Part shown: one piece after another, positions 19,884-27,568 of the stretch
Numbering within the stretch: position 1 is the stretch's first letter
How the letters are laid out: every line of letters starts with the position of its first letter
From: Alphaproteobacteria bacterium HGW-Alphaproteobacteria-4
GTDB lineage: Bacteria > Pseudomonadota > Alphaproteobacteria > Rhodobacterales > Rhodobacteraceae
Reading direction: 5' to 3'
Length of the DNA: 64,000 nucleotides
Assembly: GCA_002842855.1 (NCBI GenBank)
Contig: PHEE01000014.1
Span: 1 to 64,000, forward strand
The notes under the pieces: generated by a model
Seen by the model: the letters and a program-made list of their open reading frames with translations, nothing else
Databases searched by the model: none
What the model was told of the DNA's origin: nothing
Translations under genes and position numbers: made by a program

Positions 19884-21967
19884 GCGGAGACCATTCCGAC
19901 CAGCGCCGGGCGCGCATCCGTTCCGATTTCCTCGAAACTCAACACGGGCGCCGCAACCCCCTTTGCACCCAGCACGGTCTTGACGAAGCGGCGCCGACGC
20001 GCCGACGTCACGACACCGGGAAAGACCCCGTTTTCCGCGACGCGCGCAAGCCGGTCAGCGACGTTCATCGCAAGCCGATTGAACTTGTCCGGCGGCAGCG
20101 CGATGTCGCCCGGTCCCCTATCGGTGGGCAGTTGGTAAGTCGCGAACATGTCCTCCCACTCGGGCGCGAGCTGTAGCAGCGGGATGGAGCCATCGGCACG
20201 CCGAAGTTCGGCCACCAGCTGAAACCCCAGTCGTTGACGCACATGTTCGCAGATAGCTTCGGCGTTTTGCAGCCCACGCGCTTCGGCGATTGCTTCGAGG
20301 ATCAGCGGCAAGTTGCGGATCGAGACCCGTTCTTCAAGCAGCAGACGCAGCACGGTCAGCAGAAGATCGACCGGCACCTTGTCGGGGATCAATTCGTCAA
20401 ACAGTTTGCGCGTGGTTTCTGCGCGGAATGGATCGGACAGGTTCACCGCTTCATCCAGCAACCGGCGCAGCGCGCGCAGGCTGAGAAGACGGCTGAAGTT
20501 GCGCTTGATGACCTCAAGCAGATGCGTTGCCAGAACTTCGGTGGCACCGACCACGGTTGAGCCTGCCATTGCCGCCTCTTCCTGCATCGCGGGCGCCACC
20601 CAGCGTGCGGCGGCGCCATAGACCGGTTCGCGCACGTCGTCACCGGGTGGCAGAAGGTCGCGGTTGTCGGCGATCAACGCAAGAACTCGGTCGGGCAGCA
20701 GCCTGTCGCACGCCTGCTCCACGCCCTGAATGCGAATGCGGTACTGCCCAGGATCAAGCGTGCTGTCGTCGGTCAGCCGGATTTCGGGCAGAATCAGCCC
20801 GAAGCTTGCGGCGACATGATTGCGCATGTTGGCAATGCGAGCATCGAGCCCGGTTGCAGGATCAAGCGCCATCGCCACCAGATTGGGTGCGAATTCGACA
20901 TGGATTTCATCAATGTCGAGCACGTCGCCCAACGAGCGGCGGCGTGGTGTTGTATCGGGCAGCGGCATCTTCATTGCCTCGCGTGCGGCAAGTCGGCGCG
21001 CCGTCCGGTCAACCAGTGCCGCAGTTACCCCCAACCCCGCCGCACCCGCTATGAAGGGCAGAAACGGCAGGCCGGGCACCAGCGCAAAGAGCGCCATCAG
21101 GACGGCGACCGTCGTCAACGCCGCCGGGTACTTGCCCAACTGTCGAAACAATTCGATATCGGCTGCGCCCCGCGCCCCACCGCGCGAAAGCAGCAATGCA
21201 GAGGCAATCGAAATAATGACCGCCGGGATCTGGCTAACCAGCCCGTCGCCCACGGTCAGGATCGAGTAGGTATCAAGTGCGCGGCCAAGCGGCATACCGT
21301 GTACGGTTACCCCGATGATCAACCCCATCACCAGATTGAGCATGGTGATCAGAAGCCCTGCCACCGCGTCGCCCTTGACGAACTTTGACGCGCCGTCGAG
21401 AGAACCGAAAAAGGTTGTCTCCGCCTGTTCGCGTTCGCGGCGTGACTTTGCTTCGGTGTGATCAATGGCGCCGGCGTTCATGTCGCTGTCGATCGCAAGT
21501 TGTTTTCCTGGCATCGCATCGAGCGCAAAGCGCGCGCCCACTTCGGCCATGCGCCCCGCGCCTTTGGTGATGACGATGAAGTTGACGATCAGGATGACGC
21601 CGAACACCACGAGCCCGATCAGGACAGAGCCACCCATGATGAAATTGGCAAACCCCTCGATCACCTCGCCCGCGGCGCTTGTTCCGGTGTGGCCTTGGCC
21701 GATTATGAGCTTGGTCGAGGAGATGTTGAGCGACAGCCGCAGCATCAGCGAGGCGAGCAAGATCGTTGGGAAAGCAGAGAAATCCAGCGGTCTCTCGATG
21801 AACAGCGTGACCGTGAAGATCAGGATGGCGAGCGCGAAAGAGGTGGCGAGCCCGACATCGAGTACCCATGCCGGCATTGGCAGGATCATCATCACGATCA
21901 CCGCCATCAGCGCCAGGGCAAGCAAGATGGTGGGGCGGAAGATGCTCTGGAGCGTAAGCAACGGCAT
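19880..21967 (-). CDS. flhA: Flagellar export gate protein FlhA
   Basis: 695 residues. The N-terminal half is membrane embedded with eight predicted helices (PTILLALALMAVIVMMILPM first). It contains the FHIPEP-family segments FSAFPTILLASLMLRLSLNI and GDAVAGLLITMLNLVMGLI. The cytoplasmic C-terminal half has LTDDSTLDPGQYRIRIQG and MAGSTVVGATEVLATHLLEV. It is the export gate nonamer that receives substrate-chaperone complexes. It overlaps fliR by four bases and the transglycosylase gene by one. Confidence 0.98.
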   Translation of the reverse strand: MPLLTLQSIFRPTILLALALMAVIVMMILPMPAWVLDVGLATSFALAILIFTVTLFIERPLDFSAFPTILLASLMLRLSLNISSTKLIIGQGHTGTSAAGEVIEGFANFIMGGSVLIGLVVFGVILIVNFIVITKGAGRMAEVGARFALDAMPGKQLAIDSDMNAGAIDHTEAKSRREREQAETTFFGSLDGASKFVKGDAVAGLLITMLNLVMGLIIGVTVHGMPLGRALDTYSILTVGDGLVSQIPAVIISIASALLLSRGGARGAADIELFRQLGKYPAALTTVAVLMALFALVPGLPFLPFIAGAAGLGVTAALVDRTARRLAAREAMKMPLPDTTPRRRSLGDVLDIDEIHVEFAPNLVAMALDPATGLDARIANMRNHVAASFGLILPEIRLTDDSTLDPGQYRIRIQGVEQACDRLLPDRVLALIADNRDLLPPGDDVREPVYGAAARWVAPAMQEEAAMAGSTVVGATEVLATHLLEVIKRNFSRLLSLRALRRLLDEAVNLSDPFRAETTRKLFDELIPDKVPVDLLLTVLRLLLEERVSIRNLPLILEAIAEARGLQNAEAICEHVRQRLGFQLVAELRRADGSIPLLQLAPEWEDMFATYQLPTDRGPGDIALPPDKFNRLAMNVADRLARVAENGVFPGVVTSARRRRFVKTVLGAKGVAAPVLSFEEIGTDARPALVGMVSA

Positions 21968-22716
21968 CAGTCCACCATCGGTGCGGCGGCCGCGGTCAGC
22001 AGCCCGCCGTGGCCAGCTGCGCCGCGCGGCACCAGTGAACCAAGGCCACCCGGATTACCGGGCTGAAGCAACGGAAAGCGGTTAACGCGCGGCGCGTCCG
22101 GTGCTTGCGCGCCGTATGCCGCAAGCACGATGTCCGGGATATCCAGAGGCGCGGAAATGCCCAGTCCCGGTGGTGGCGGCGTTGTGCTCGTCAGATTTGC
22201 CAGGATGCGTTCGAAACGTGCCGTGTAGCGATCAGCGTATTCCGGCGTGCGGGAATGGTAGGCGCCCGCCGCCGCGCTCCAATTTCCCTTTTCGGCATAA
22301 AGTTCGGCGAGCAGACGCGCGGCGTATTGTGCGTTCACGAGCGGGTCGAACATTTGCTCGATCGAGCCGAAATTCTGACCGTGCCACTTGTAGTTGATCT
22401 GAAAACATCCAACGTCGAAGCTTCGGGCGCCACGGCCAAACGCGGCGAGTGCATAGGCCGTAGCCTCGTCGCGGGTGTCGAACCAAGCGTCGTCACCCTC
22501 CATATTGACCGCCCAGGGCCAGGCGCGAAAGGCTCCCTCGAGGGTGCGGCCGGTTTCGGTCAACGATATTGCGCGCATCACCGCAATCGGGACGCCACTT
22601 TGCCGCGACGCGATTTGGGTGACTTGCTCACAAATCTCGCTATTCGCGAAATTTGCCGCGGCAGGGTGTGCGACTAGCAGGATCGCAGACAAAACCATTG
22701 CCGAGATACGCACCAT
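21967..22716 (-). CDS. Flagellar lytic transglycosylase (SltF-like)
   Basis: 249 residues. Sec signal MVRISAMVLSAILLVAHPAA with likely cleavage near residue 22, then an SLT domain: GVPIAVMRAISLTETGR with catalytic Glu54, VGCFQINYKWHG, and AAGAYHSRTPEYADRY. It would cleave peptidoglycan so that the rod can pass. In Rhodobacter sphaeroides SltF plays this role with a FlgJ that lacks a muramidase domain, exactly the combination seen here. I chose ATG 22716 (RBS AAGGGAAG upstream, signal peptide at once) over 22779. It lies between the 766-residue gene and flhA. Confidence 0.85.
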   Translation of the reverse strand: MVRISAMVLSAILLVAHPAAANFANSEICEQVTQIASRQSGVPIAVMRAISLTETGRTLEGAFRAWPWAVNMEGDDAWFDTRDEATAYALAAFGRGARSFDVGCFQINYKWHGQNFGSIEQMFDPLVNAQYAARLLAELYAEKGNWSAAAGAYHSRTPEYADRYTARFERILANLTSTTPPPPGLGISAPLDIPDIVLAAYGAQAPDAPRVNRFPLLQPGNPGGLGSLVPRGAAGHGGLLTAAAAPMVD

Positions 22717-22808
22717 CGGGATTCTTCCCTTGCCTTCAGGCGCATGTTGCGCCCAGTCGAAAGCTACGCTCGCAGGCATTGAGATTTGGTAACCAACCCT
22801 GGCAAAGC

Positions 22809-25109
22809 TCAGCGATCAGCATTTTCGGCGAGCGCAAGATCGAGCGCGGCGCGTGCGTTGCGGCTTTCGGCGAGGAGCGTTCTTGTGGCTGCGAGTGACC
22901 CTGGCGCGTCGGCCGCATCGCGGGCTTCGGTTGCGGCAAGGCCAAGGGCTTTGACCAGGGCCATTTGTGGTGGAGTTCCGAGCCGCATTACCTCTGACCA
23001 GTCGCCCGCGCTCCAAGCCTCGGCACCTGCCAGATCCAATGCCTCCAACAGCAAATATGCGCGCCGCGCAGCATCGTGGTCGCCGGTCAGCCGCAATGCA
23101 TCGGCCCGCGCCCGGGCGGCCTCGGTACCAGAAAGGCCGGCGATTTCGGCAAGCGCCGCAGCGCCATCTTGCTGCATGATCGCGGCGCGTGCGCGCAGCA
23201 GGCGCCCGGCATCGAACCGGACAGCCTTGGGGCCGAGCACTTGGCGCGCCTCGGCGGGAAAACCAAGGACCAGAAGGCGTTCGGCGGTCTGCAACTGCAG
23301 CGGCCAGTCGTTCTGCTGCAAGATCATTGATTTGCTGCGAAAATACTCGGTTACAAAGGTCACTTCGTCGGGTGTTGAAGCAAGCTGGCGCAGCAGTTCG
23401 GCGGTGGTTTGCGCGATGAACTCGGGCGACGCGCCCTTGGGCATACGCCCCAACGCATCAAAGGCACGCACGAATAGCCCAGATGCGCCGGCGGCCAAGA
23501 TGTGCGCGCGGGCCAGGGTGGCACCGTCAGGCGCTTCGCGATGCTCGAAAGCAAGCGCCGCCACCGCCTCAACCAAGGCAAGATCAATCGAGGCACCCGA
23601 AGCGAGAAGCGAGTCGACATATAGCGCCAACGCGCGCGGAGCGTCTGGTCCGTTCTCGGCAATGATCGGGCCGAGCGCTGCTGCCGCTTGCGTGTGCGCG
23701 CCGCGTGCCATGTCAATATCGGCGTCGATCAGGCCAGTCGTAGACTCGTGGTTTCCGGGCGCACGGGTGATGGCATCGCGCACGGTGCGGGCAGCCGATT
23801 CTGCGCCCAAGGTGATAAGTCGCTCAGCCAGACGCGGCCCTAGCAGTAGCCGCAAATTCAGAGGCAGCAGCGAGAAGCCGCGCAAAACGGCATCAGTGTT
23901 CCGGGCATCACCGGGTTTCAGCTCGCGGTTTGAAAGAATCGCCCAAAGAGCGGCGGGCGAATCGCAATCGGCCATCTGCGTCAGTCGGGCGCCGGTTGCA
24001 ACCGCCCTGTCATCGATCACGGCAGCCATCGCGCGCAGAACGTCGCTGTCGACGGGATCAACCGCGAACCCGTCGAGCAGAGCAGCAACCTCGGCGCCCA
24101 TGCCGAGTGCAAGATACAGGCGCGCAAGCGCCAGAACGGCATCGGGAGATGGCTTGTCGAACTCGCCCAACAAGGCCGTCTGCGCAGATCCGATTTGCAG
24201 CGCGGCCGGGTGATCACTTGCCCAGGCGCCGACATCGACGGCGGCAGCGGGCAGGCAGACCAGACCGACGGGATTGAGCTGCTGGGCGGGCGGGCCGCCT
24301 TTTGCATCGCGGTCGAATACGGTTTCGGAACGCAGCGCGATATGGTCCTCGGGCCTATTCGGCGTCGCTTCGTGCGGCGCGTCGTTCTGGGGCGTCGTTG
24401 TGGAAGCCAACTCGGCGACGGGCTCAGAGAGGTCGCCGGGCAATGTGATCGTGACCAAACCTTGGCTTGCCGCTCGGCTGAGCTGTGTGAGCAGGTGCCC
24501 CTCAGCTTCGGTGACGCGCGGGTCCCGGATTGATGCCGCACTTTCGGATGCCACGTGATCTGCGGCGCTGGTTTCGGCCGTCAGTGGCGGTGCGGAGCTC
24601 TGCCAATAGTTACCGAGAAAAGTGTCGATAAAAGGTGAGCGGGTCGGCAGGCGGAGCGGCAACGAGGGGCGGCGCGCAGGGTTGTTCAAAGGATCTTGCG
24701 CGCCCGGCGATTCGGGGCTGAGCGGTGCCTCAAAACGCGACCCGACAGGCGCTGTGCCCGATACCACGTCCAGCACGATCGTACCGGGTTTGATTTCAAA
24801 CGCGGAGGCGTAGGTTCCAGACGCAACCTTCAGAGCCAATGTTGCAGCGGCCGGAGCCGTGACATCAAGAATCCGACGGCGCGGAATGAGATCGAATACG
24901 CGCGCGAGGTCGAAGACAATTTCGGGACGGGCGAGTTGAAGAGAGTAGCCGTTTTCGGTTCGGCCCATCCGCCAATCTGTCGGCGCCTCCAAATTCAGCA
25001 CCAACCGCGAAAACGTCGCGTGCTCTCCCGATTTGACCAGCACCGTTTCGGCCTGCGCGGGCGCCGTTAACAGCATGAGAGCTGCCGCAAGGTGCAAGAT
25101 CAGATTCAT
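22809..25109 (-). CDS. Large exported protein of the flagellar operon, unknown function
   Basis: 766 residues; I do not recognise a named family. Signal peptide MNLILHLAAALMLLTAPAQA. Residues about 21-120 form a beta-rich AMIN-like module (FSRLVLNLEAPTDWRMGR, ARVFDLIPRRRILDVTAP, GTIVLDVVSG). A Pro/Ser-rich linker follows (about 120-260), then a long Ala/Leu-rich helical-repeat region (about 270-760) resembling TPR/Sel1-type solenoids. Its ATG overlaps the motA stop by four bases, the spot where motB often lies, but there is no OmpA-type peptidoglycan-binding domain. A periplasmic motor or stator accessory, functionally like rhizobial MotC, is conceivable but unproven. Confidence 0.7.
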   Translation of the reverse strand: MNLILHLAAALMLLTAPAQAETVLVKSGEHATFSRLVLNLEAPTDWRMGRTENGYSLQLARPEIVFDLARVFDLIPRRRILDVTAPAAATLALKVASGTYASAFEIKPGTIVLDVVSGTAPVGSRFEAPLSPESPGAQDPLNNPARRPSLPLRLPTRSPFIDTFLGNYWQSSAPPLTAETSAADHVASESAASIRDPRVTEAEGHLLTQLSRAASQGLVTITLPGDLSEPVAELASTTTPQNDAPHEATPNRPEDHIALRSETVFDRDAKGGPPAQQLNPVGLVCLPAAAVDVGAWASDHPAALQIGSAQTALLGEFDKPSPDAVLALARLYLALGMGAEVAALLDGFAVDPVDSDVLRAMAAVIDDRAVATGARLTQMADCDSPAALWAILSNRELKPGDARNTDAVLRGFSLLPLNLRLLLGPRLAERLITLGAESAARTVRDAITRAPGNHESTTGLIDADIDMARGAHTQAAAALGPIIAENGPDAPRALALYVDSLLASGASIDLALVEAVAALAFEHREAPDGATLARAHILAAGASGLFVRAFDALGRMPKGASPEFIAQTTAELLRQLASTPDEVTFVTEYFRSKSMILQQNDWPLQLQTAERLLVLGFPAEARQVLGPKAVRFDAGRLLRARAAIMQQDGAAALAEIAGLSGTEAARARADALRLTGDHDAARRAYLLLEALDLAGAEAWSAGDWSEVMRLGTPPQMALVKALGLAATEARDAADAPGSLAATRTLLAESRNARAALDLALAENADR

Positions 25110-25975
25110 GCTGCTTCCTGCTTGATTGCCTTCAGAGCCTCTTCAAGCTCGGAAAAGCTCGGCCGGATGTGGTGCGGGGTGTTCTGGCGGCCAACCTCGA
25201 TGCAAATGTTGGTGGCGTGGTTGTGCAGGTTGGCAACGAGCACTTCGCGGATCAACTTGTAGAAATGGCTGTCTTCCTCCACCACCGATTTGACCTTTTG
25301 CGCGAAGGGCCCGGCAAAGCCGTAAGCCATGAAGACGCCGAGGAAGGTGCCGACCAGCGCGCCACCAATCATCTCGCCCAGAATCTCTGGCGGCTGGTCA
25401 ATCGAACCCATGGTCTTGATCACACCAAGCACGGCCGCAACGATGCCGAGCGCTGGCAGGGCGTCGGCAATCGCCTGAAGCGCATGGCTGCCCAGCAATG
25501 CGTGATGAAGATTGGCCTCGAGCTGCTTTTCCAGCACCTCTTCCACCTGATGCGGGTCGTCGTAGTTCATCGAGGCGGAGCGCAAGGTGTCACAAATCAG
25601 CCCGACGGCCTCATGATCCTTGAGGATTTTCGGGTACTTGCCAAAAATGGCCGAGATCTCGGGCGATTCAATGTGTTCCTCAATCGCGACCGGGTTCTGC
25701 CGCGCAAGCCGGATCAGTTCAAACAGCAGGCACAGCAGATCGCGAAAATCGGCGGGCTTCCATTTTGTGCCCCCGAAAACTTTCAGGACATCTTTGAGCG
25801 TGTGCTTGATCGTGGCGAAGTCGCTCGAAATTACGAAAGCGCCGACCGACGAGCCGCCGATAATGATCATTTCGTAGGGCAAGGAATGCAGCACGATTTC
25901 AAGGTGCCCGCCCGCCAGCACAAAGCCACCAAAGACCATCACGAAGATGACGATAATGCCTATGATGCCGATCAT
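25106..25975 (-). CDS. motA: Flagellar motor stator protein MotA
   Basis: 289 residues, the usual MotA length. Four membrane helices: MIGIIGIIVIFVMVFGGFVL at the N-terminus and PALGIVAAVLGVIKTMGS plus MIGGALVGTFLGVFMAYGF in the C-terminal half. The cytoplasmic loop contains LFELIRLARQNPVAIEEHIE. MotA and MotB form the proton-driven stator; motB is not in this window. I chose ATG 25975, with GGAGG seven bases upstream, rather than the ATG at 26023. Confidence 0.96.
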   Translation of the reverse strand: MIGIIGIIVIFVMVFGGFVLAGGHLEIVLHSLPYEMIIIGGSSVGAFVISSDFATIKHTLKDVLKVFGGTKWKPADFRDLLCLLFELIRLARQNPVAIEEHIESPEISAIFGKYPKILKDHEAVGLICDTLRSASMNYDDPHQVEEVLEKQLEANLHHALLGSHALQAIADALPALGIVAAVLGVIKTMGSIDQPPEILGEMIGGALVGTFLGVFMAYGFAGPFAQKVKSVVEEDSHFYKLIREVLVANLHNHATNICIEVGRQNTPHHIRPSFSELEEALKAIKQEAA

Positions 25976-26035
25976 GCGCTTGCCTCCGTCATGACCCGAA
26001 GCTTTGCAGATCGGCGTTAACAATAGCTGTGCACA

Positions 26036-26650
26036 TCACTGAACCGGCGCATTCGCGTTGCGCCCGGCGATCAGCACGCTGATCGCGTAAGCGGCCTTTG
26101 GGTCGAGCCCGGCGAGTACCTGCGCCGCGGCGTCAGGCCGCATCCGCGAAAGGAACCCGGCGGCGAATTCAGGCGCCATTTCCGAAAAGAGAGCGGCGGC
26201 ATCCTTTGGTTTCATGTTTTCATAAAGCGTCACCAGCCGGGTAACATCGCCCTCGGCAGCGCCATCAGCAATGGCAAGTGTCGTTGCAAGCCTATCCTCG
26301 GCGGCGATCAGCTCGGCCAGTTTAAGATCGAGCTGTGTCTGCGCAAGGGCAACCGTTTGCGCGCGGCTCGCAAGTGCCTCTTCGCGCTTGGCGAGCGCCA
26401 TTTCTCGGCTGCGCAGTGCCGCAAGCAGTGCTGCCGATTCGGGCGGTGGCTCACAGGTTGTGGTGGGCGCAGGGGCTGTTGATGTGACGGAAACGGCAAA
26501 GGCCTGGCCCGCGGTTTCGCCAATCCGGATCATGCCCGACGAGGCCAGAAGAACTATGATGACCCACAAGGCGCCCGGCCTGCCCCATTTTTGTGCGCGC
26601 CTGGCCGGTGTGCGGTCGGGAGCCACCACAGCTGCGCCAGCACCGCTCAT
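26036..26650 (-). CDS. MotE-like flagellar protein (MgtE-N type domain)
   Basis: 204 residues. A membrane anchor (ALWVIIVLLASSGMIRIG, about 28-45), a coiled coil (ALRSREMALAKREEALASRA, about 78-97) and a C-terminal MgtE N-domain-like module: LYENMKPKDAAALFSEMAP, LSRMRPDAAAQVLAGLDP. This architecture matches the MotE/FliG-related proteins of alphaproteobacterial flagellar clusters; MotE of Sinorhizobium is a periplasmic chaperone for MotC. It is coupled to the upstream gene by an ATGA overlap and lies 60 bases before motA. Function here is inferred from architecture and position. Confidence 0.7.
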   Translation of the reverse strand: MSGAGAAVVAPDRTPARRAQKWGRPGALWVIIVLLASSGMIRIGETAGQAFAVSVTSTAPAPTTTCEPPPESAALLAALRSREMALAKREEALASRAQTVALAQTQLDLKLAELIAAEDRLATTLAIADGAAEGDVTRLVTLYENMKPKDAAALFSEMAPEFAAGFLSRMRPDAAAQVLAGLDPKAAYAISVLIAGRNANAPVQ

Positions 26651-27006
26651 TCCGCAGCCTCCAGATCTTCGTGGTGTATACGACGTCGCACCACCCGGAG
26701 CCGCCGGGCGCCTTGGCCGGGATCAGGCAGATCGTGCATGGACGCGAGCAGCAACTCCAGACGCTCCGCTGCGCTTTCGGAGCGTTCAGTAAGCGCCGTA
26801 AGCGTTTCGGCCGATGCACCGGCTGTACTTTGCGCCTTTTGCAGCGCCTTGGTCATGTCATCGACCTGCGCCGAAAGGACTGCGATTGCACCACCCATGC
26901 CTGTTTCAAGTTGGTTGAACCGGCTGAGCCGCTGCGCCAGCACCAGACAGTAGGCCATCGCCCCAATGGCGCCAGCACCCAGAAGAATGTCTGCAATGAG
27001 TTCCAT
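26647..27006 (-). CDS. Small membrane coiled-coil protein of the flagellar operon (DUF6468-like)
   Basis: 119 residues. One N-terminal membrane helix (LIADILLGAGAIGAMAYCLV), then a coiled-coil region (about 30-90) and a basic segment ARRLRVVRRR. I know proteins of this layout in alphaproteobacterial flagellar clusters under DUF6468; the assignment is by layout and context, not a search. It overlaps the MotE-like gene by four bases and follows fliL by twelve. Function unknown. Confidence 0.55.
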   Translation of the reverse strand: MELIADILLGAGAIGAMAYCLVLAQRLSRFNQLETGMGGAIAVLSAQVDDMTKALQKAQSTAGASAETLTALTERSESAAERLELLLASMHDLPDPGQGARRLRVVRRRIHHEDLEAAE

Positions 27007-27018
27007 GCCGCAGCCTCC

Positions 27019-27507
27019 TCAGTTTACCACGAATTCTGTCACCAACAGGTCACGCACGCGCCCCTCGCCAGTGACAATCTGAACCCGTCTCAGCATTTGC
27101 GCGCGCAAGCGGATCAGCGCACTTCTGTCTTCCAGCTCGGCAACCTCGACGGCACGCAGGTACCCGTTCAGCACATCCATGACGCGCGGCAGCAGCAAGA
27201 TCACTTCGGCTTGATAGGGCTTTGCAACCTCAAGCTGCGCCCGAAACAGCAGGTGCCGTGCGCCCGTTCCTGTTCCAAGCTGGATTACCAGCGGTTCCAT
27301 CGGCACGAAGGCGATGTCGGGCAGGGTCGCGACCACGACGCTTTCAGGGGCAACTGGCGCCGAGTCCGGAGCGGTAAGAATCAGCCCCGAATAGGCGGCA
27401 AAAAACCCTCCGGCGCCGAGCAGCAGCATTGCGCCAAGCCCGGCAAACAACGGCATTTTCGACTTCCTTGCAGGTGCGGCTTGCGCCGCGGGGTCATTCT
27501 CGGCCAT
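27019..27507 (-). CDS. fliL: Flagellar basal-body-associated protein FliL, second copy
   Basis: 162 residues from ATG 27507: a charged cytoplasmic start, one membrane helix (LFAGLGAMLLLGAGGFFAAYSG, which is split by family-typical glycines), then a periplasmic domain with FVPMEPLVIQLG, LLFRAQLEVA, RVMDVLNGYLRAVE, and the end VRDLLVTEFVVN. FliL supports stator function. I chose 27507, with GGGGA upstream, over ATGs at 27522 and 27552. It sits divergent from fliF, the usual FliL position, so this copy is the better fliL candidate than the one at 17162-17656. Confidence 0.88.
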   Translation of the reverse strand: MAENDPAAQAAPARKSKMPLFAGLGAMLLLGAGGFFAAYSGLILTAPDSAPVAPESVVVATLPDIAFVPMEPLVIQLGTGTGARHLLFRAQLEVAKPYQAEVILLLPRVMDVLNGYLRAVEVAELEDRSALIRLRAQMLRRVQIVTGEGRVRDLLVTEFVVN

Positions 27508-27549
27508 GGCATCCCCGCACATTCGGTTTGCCAGATATAGACCCAAGCT

Positions 27550-27568
27550 CACTAACCGATTGTTAAGC
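27550..27568. promoter_or_regulatory. CtrA-like box between fliL and fliF
   Basis: CTAA (27552-27555), seven bases, TTAA (27563-27566): one mismatch from TTAA-N7-TTAA; read on the minus strand it is TTAA-N7-TTAG. It lies 45-60 bp upstream of the fliL ATG and 57-72 bp upstream of fliF, well placed for either divergent promoter. CtrA control of flagellar operons is established in several alphaproteobacteria. Confidence 0.45.

Follow-up and report, generated by a model that had tools for sequence, protein, structure and literature searches.

The window, by which we mean the whole stretch of 64,000 nucleotides that was analysed, contains a cluster of flagellar genes on its minus strand. They are transcribed in the order fliL, pflI-like gene, motE, motA, motK, sltF, flhA, fliR and flhB, with fliR recognised by its homologues alone. 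fliL (27019..27552) is followed by the pflI-like gene (26647..27006, weak match to DUF6468) and by motE (26036..26650), which encodes a putative E-ring protein with MgtE_N and weak FlbB matches and a single cysteine, Cys66. Next comes motA (25106..26023, TIGR03818, E 6.9e-108), the true start of which is likely at 25975. The gene studied here, motK, occupies 22809..25109 on the same strand and encodes, from an ATG start, an exported protein of 766 residues. Its start overlaps the motA stop by the four bases ATGA (25106-25109), and it is followed by the gene of the lytic transglycosylase SltF (21967..22779, SLT domain, E 2.9e-05). The first-pass annotation, made from the sequence alone, had reported this overlapping frame, the transglycosylase gene next to it and a MotE-like gene two positions upstream; all three were confirmed, motA being the gene in between. 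A MotB_plug search of the whole genome gave one place only, on contig 52 (G000:C52), outside the window.

The N-terminus of the protein reads by eye as a signal peptide (residues 1-20, 25050..25109, cleavage after AQA), as had been proposed. Behind it lie an AMIN beta-sandwich domain (residues 20-124, 24738..25052), a linker (about residues 125-284, 24258..24737) and a TPR-like helical solenoid (about residues 285-721, 22947..24257). Pfam returned a weak TPR_19 match (E 0.067) and no family name for the protein, and searches of NCBIfam and, with the single sequence, of the PDB gave no match.

Two further features were noted around the gene. A plus-strand frame of 475 residues opposite motK (22786-24213) was considered as a second, antisense gene and set aside as a probable shadow ORF, the coding DNA here being rich in GC. 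A CtrA-like site with one mismatch lies on the plus strand in the gap between fliL and fliF (27552..27566) and is suggestive by its position alone; the window holds three such matches where 2.58 are expected, a number not above chance. In C. sphaeroides a CtrA site has been placed upstream of fliL2 (PMC10954123).

Relationship to MotK of the Fla2 flagellum

MotK was described in 2024 as a protein of the Cereibacter sphaeroides Fla2 flagellum; the gene order there is fliL-pflI-motE-motA-motK, and the protein is reported to be exported and periplasmic, with an N-terminal AMIN-like fold and a TPR-like remainder (PMC10954123). The gene order in the window is the same. For comparison at the sequence level we used locus L200, where synteny with the window extends from fliL to flhB. 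Judged by protein lengths, L200 presumably comes from C. sphaeroides or a closely related bacterium: its MotE has exactly 185 residues and its MotK 652 residues from the first ATG (684 from a GTG in the longest frame), both being the published C. sphaeroides sizes. The window protein is 33% identical to the L200 MotK over 548 columns (E 3e-58, with the identity of L200 deduced as above), and the two MotE proteins are 49% identical over 168.

The position of the gene, the similarity to the L200 sequence, an AMIN-like domain, TPR-like helices and a signal sequence recognised by eye thus all coincide in the window protein, which by sequence, fold and gene order is a member of the MotK family of the Fla2-type flagellum. 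We put the probability that it is MotK, with a role in rotation, at roughly 0.93. The first-pass annotation had stated that no function could be named and had seen in the gene a candidate for an undescribed motor component. Neither view holds, since the gene is an orthologue of MotK, which was published in 2024 and binds MotE and MotB2 in C. sphaeroides (PMC10954123); its analogy with the rhizobial MotC/MotE pair, on the other hand, was right. Relatives of MotK in Paracoccaceae and Roseobacteraceae had also been noted already (PMC10954123), and because the family is known, the find as such is of ordinary interest. The window gene, to which no model in Pfam or NCBIfam gives a name, can now be called motK, placed in a family and assigned a role that is open to testing.

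The partner protein MotE differs in its cysteines. The only cysteine of the L200 MotE is at position 49, in agreement with the published C. sphaeroides MotE, for which a 29-residue signal and Cys20 are given (PMC10954123). In the BLAST alignment, Cys66 of the window MotE is displaced by one column from the L200 dimer cysteine. Since 20 of 78 MotE relatives (longest frames) contain no cysteine, a disulphide dimer cannot be universal there.

Predicted structure

The AlphaFold model of the window MotK was calculated with 69 relatives as input, 11 of 80 loci having been left out (cut off, or start-setting motif unmatched), and has a mean pLDDT of 86.3. It consists of nine strands at residues 22-117, a linker of mostly low confidence, the solenoid at about 285-721 and a last helix at 738-765. 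The AMIN domain (residues 20-124) modelled alone, with 54 of 70 rows, reaches a pLDDT of 96.1. In VIA-align, its best match is PilQ (3jc8; Z 11.7, rmsd 3.0, 99 aligned), followed by AmiC (4bin; Z 11.4, rmsd 2.3, 98 aligned). After these come a protein of Synechocystis (5h3k; Z 10.6) and another two PilQ entries; small heat-shock proteins score Z 8.2 and less, below all of these. The N-terminal domain of PflA scores Z 7.5. Foldseek with the domain alone returned AmiC and PilQ mixed with small heat-shock proteins at similar E values, none below 0.001; as VIA-align separates the two groups, the comparison of folds confirms the domain as AMIN. PilQ was the only PDB sequence matched by a profile of the domain (E 0.0061). 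Among 30 relatives, the Pfam models AMIN and AMIN-like gave matches at E <= 0.1 in only 2 and 6, respectively, and the assignment therefore rests on the fold comparison. The structure prediction that had been suggested as a check of the first-pass annotation thus yielded both the AMIN-like beta domain and the long helical-repeat region that the annotation had read from the sequence, in a confident model.

The solenoid gives unspecific TPR-like matches to many TPR proteins. When Foldseek was run with the whole model, the top PDB match was 9hmf_K from the C. jejuni motor scaffold (E 3.4e-05, 912 columns), a chain that we take to be PflA from its length and from the listing of chain L as a TPR protein. 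The two structures superpose poorly (TM 0.14, rmsd 38.7), and a TPR protein of the eukaryotic anaphase-promoting complex (APC/C) follows with a match just 20-fold weaker (E 6.8e-04). In VIA-align the whole model found TPR, PPR and similar solenoids among the 50 matches listed; PflA was not among these 50, which is uninformative either way. Due to the poor superposition and the close second match, the link to PflA comes mainly from the domain order, the AMIN part and the published papers.

Cys285 and Cys382 (codons from 24257 and 23966) are invariant in alignments of 30 and 70 rows and align with cysteines in the L200 MotK. Judging from these alignments, they are a candidate disulphide in a protein expected to be periplasmic.

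Occurrence in the order and in the class

In a sample of 244 genomes of the order, all labelled as the window's family and including the window's own genome, a single-sequence search found a MotK match in 174 genomes and in 84 of 101 genera. MotK thus occurs in most sampled genomes of the order, and the frame in the window is not a chance ORF. Of the same 244 genomes, 204 have a MotE match and 213 an FlhA match. To relate MotK to MotE, matches to a MotE profile built from 21 rows were divided into strong and weak ones at a boundary set by hand, where the E values leave a gap from 1.5e-45 to 1.2e-27. Of the 179 genomes with a strong MotE match, 173 also have a MotK match and six do not; none of the 25 with a weak match only has one, nor does any of the 31 without FlhA. 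In one further genome, G160, MotK is matched marginally and MotE not at all. Because the sampled genomes share ancestry, this co-occurrence shows an association but does not count as independent evidence; divergent MotK proteins may also have escaped a search made with one sequence. The 25 genomes with weak MotE matches (E 3e-14 to 1e-27, e.g. G006, G048 and G185) may have a MotK that has diverged or a flagellar system of a different type.

The survey of gene neighbourhoods, another check suggested beforehand, covered the best 80 of 236 relatives from a scan of named genomes. The order fliL-pflI-motE-motA-motK is kept in 73 of these 80 loci, some of the others lying on short contigs, and MotA is found in the same locus as motK in 78.

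Outside the order, a MotK profile had matches in 114 of 387 genomes of the class, 4 of them in the window's family; many of these matches are short AMIN proteins, which are probably amidases. The listed matches to E about 1e-10 provided a distant sample of 39 long-frame matches from 23 families as labelled (G614 was left out), and ten of the listed matches with frames of less than 640 residues were chosen by hand as controls. The long frame was found again in 37 of the 39 loci (not in L165 and L176), and in 33 of these 37 a MotE match lies upstream on the same strand, at distances of 57 to 4525 bases. Two of the ten controls (L191 and L199) have a MotE match and L193 has the pair of genes described below, and all three are therefore possible short relatives of MotK. 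Two AMIN matches are seen in a number of the distant proteins. In a profile-profile comparison, the distant solenoids and those of the order align over 430 columns with a probability of 99.9 (E 8e-36), to which shared TPR character may contribute.

Two MotB-like genes stand before the motK-like frame, usually right next to it, in 28 of the 39 regions with a long frame (e.g. L151:6310-7733) and in two of the ten controls (L193 and L199), and a CheZ-like gene precedes the pair in 22 of the 28. The profiles used for these counts were seeded, after inspection, from five of the same loci (four for CheZ). According to Pfam searches with three pairs, the copy nearer motK has MotB_plug and OmpA domains in all three, and the farther copy has MotB_plug alone, above the cut-off in two of three. 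The proton-binding aspartate of MotB is present in the nearer copy of all 29 full-length pairs; in the other copy it is replaced in all 29, by Ser (18), Gly (6) or Ala (5). No MotA match was found at the pair in the 29 genomes searched. Elsewhere in the genome there is a MotA match in 28 of them, exactly one in 25 of the 28, and in 27 it stands beside another MotB. Literature searches listed no paper on such a pair, which is no proof of novelty, and a hybrid or accessory stator unit is a possible explanation for it.

A tentative reading, to which we give less than even odds, joins these observations. MotK would then be the Rhodobacterales branch of a class-wide motor module motE-cheZ-motB'-motB-motK, in which an aspartate-less and an aspartate-bearing MotB, without a motA of their own, might form a wall-anchoring or hybrid stator unit with MotE and an often two-AMIN MotK; in Rhodobacterales the MotB pair would have been lost and motK would have come to lie behind motA. 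What is new is modest: MotK-like genes occur in the 23 alphaproteobacterial families sampled, as a rule downstream of motE and in many cases downstream of two MotB-like genes in tandem. As a preprint has searched alphaproteobacteria with MotC, MotK and CC_2058, the class-wide occurrence of MotK may already stand in its tables (PMC11870540).

Role in the motor and comparison with known systems

C. sphaeroides motK mutants are reported to be paralysed, yet flagellated, with filaments retained and a similar amount of hook protein (PMC10954123). In the same work, MotE and MotB2 are the binding partners of MotK, MotK-sfGFP localises to the flagellated pole in dependence on MotA2 and MotB2, and the loss of MotK leaves MotE severely reduced and MotB2 stability without evident change; peptidoglycan binding is deduced there from the fold. 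In a review (PMC13023049) and a preprint (PMC11870540), MotE is taken to be the likely E-ring protein (FlgY, FlbB), and MotK, MotC and CC_2058 are regarded as corresponding to PflA, the spoke protein of Campylobacter.

By analogy with the C. sphaeroides homologue, the AMIN domain of the exported window protein would touch the peptidoglycan, the linker would supply reach, and the TPR-like solenoid would be an arm with two binding partners: MotE, presumed to form the E-ring around the MS-ring, and MotB, in its periplasmic part. As a PflA-like spoke, the protein could position the stators around the rotor and favour the open, wall-anchored MotB; loss of motK would be expected to paralyse the flagellum and leave assembly unaffected. 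On this analogy, the most likely function of MotK is that of a periplasmic spoke, anchored to the cell wall, which binds both MotE and MotB and serves to recruit or activate stators, and we consider the spoke geometry itself probable. The first-pass annotation had suggested that the protein might connect the stator or rod assembly with the cell wall. The motor role and the stator link are probable by comparison with C. sphaeroides; the rod part of the suggestion is not supported by the work on that species, whose mutants are still flagellated.

TPR proteins often have assembly roles. MotK could instead act on the stator or on MotE as a chaperone or stabilising factor and be no structural part of the motor; MotE of S. 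meliloti was itself first interpreted as a chaperone of MotC (PMC10954123, PMC13023049). The severe reduction of MotE in C. sphaeroides lacking MotK would agree with this. However, the lack of an evident change in MotB2 stability in the motK mutant and the MotA2- and MotB2-dependent position of MotK-sfGFP at the flagellated pole speak against it, and we regard it as very improbable. Hardly credible is an undescribed rod or cell-wall remodelling component that works with SltF: sltF is the next gene after motK in the window, as it is in the order patterns of 46 of the 80 loci (best 80 of 236), and cell-wall amidases contain AMIN domains, but C. sphaeroides motK mutants keep their filaments and a similar hook protein amount, Pfam at E up to 1 finds no amidase domain in the window MotK, the remainder of which is a helical solenoid, and in 13 of the same 80 loci flhA comes next after motK, with no SltF match.

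MotK can be compared with several named proteins. The AMIN domains of AmiC (4bin) and PilQ (3jc8, 4av2, 4aqz) have the fold of MotK residues 20-124 (Z 10-12); the amidase part of the former and the secretin part of the latter are absent from MotK. Sinorhizobium meliloti MotC resembles MotK as a periplasmic TPR protein that is a partner of MotE and required for rotation (PMC10954123, PMC13023049). Compared by description, it is unlike the window MotK in being given without an AMIN domain (PMC13023049) and in having its gene downstream of motB (PMC10954123); in the window, motA precedes motK, and MotB was found on another contig. Caulobacter crescentus CC_2058 has an N-terminal AMIN fold and adjoins the motE homologue CC_2059 (PMC10954123, PMC11870540); its mutant is reported as Mot-, and by the paper's account it is not similar to MotK in BLAST (PMC10954123). 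C. sphaeroides Fla2 MotK (Q3IY86) has the gene order, signal sequence, AMIN fold and TPR-like helices in common with the window protein (PMC10954123). It is shorter, with 652 versus 766 residues, and close to its C-terminus it is predicted to be disordered and proline-rich, whereas in the model of the window MotK the helices run on to residue 721.

C. jejuni PflA (9hmf chain K as read here, 9leq_A) consists of an AMIN-like beta-sandwich, a loop and a long TPR solenoid in the same order as MotK, and its partner is the E-ring protein FlgY, which the papers call a homologue of MotE (PMC11870540). PDB searches with the window MotK gave no sequence match to PflA; the same succession of AMIN domain, loop and TPR solenoid is found in the window protein, and the MotK sequence family is thereby tied to the E-ring and spoke architecture of Campylobacter.
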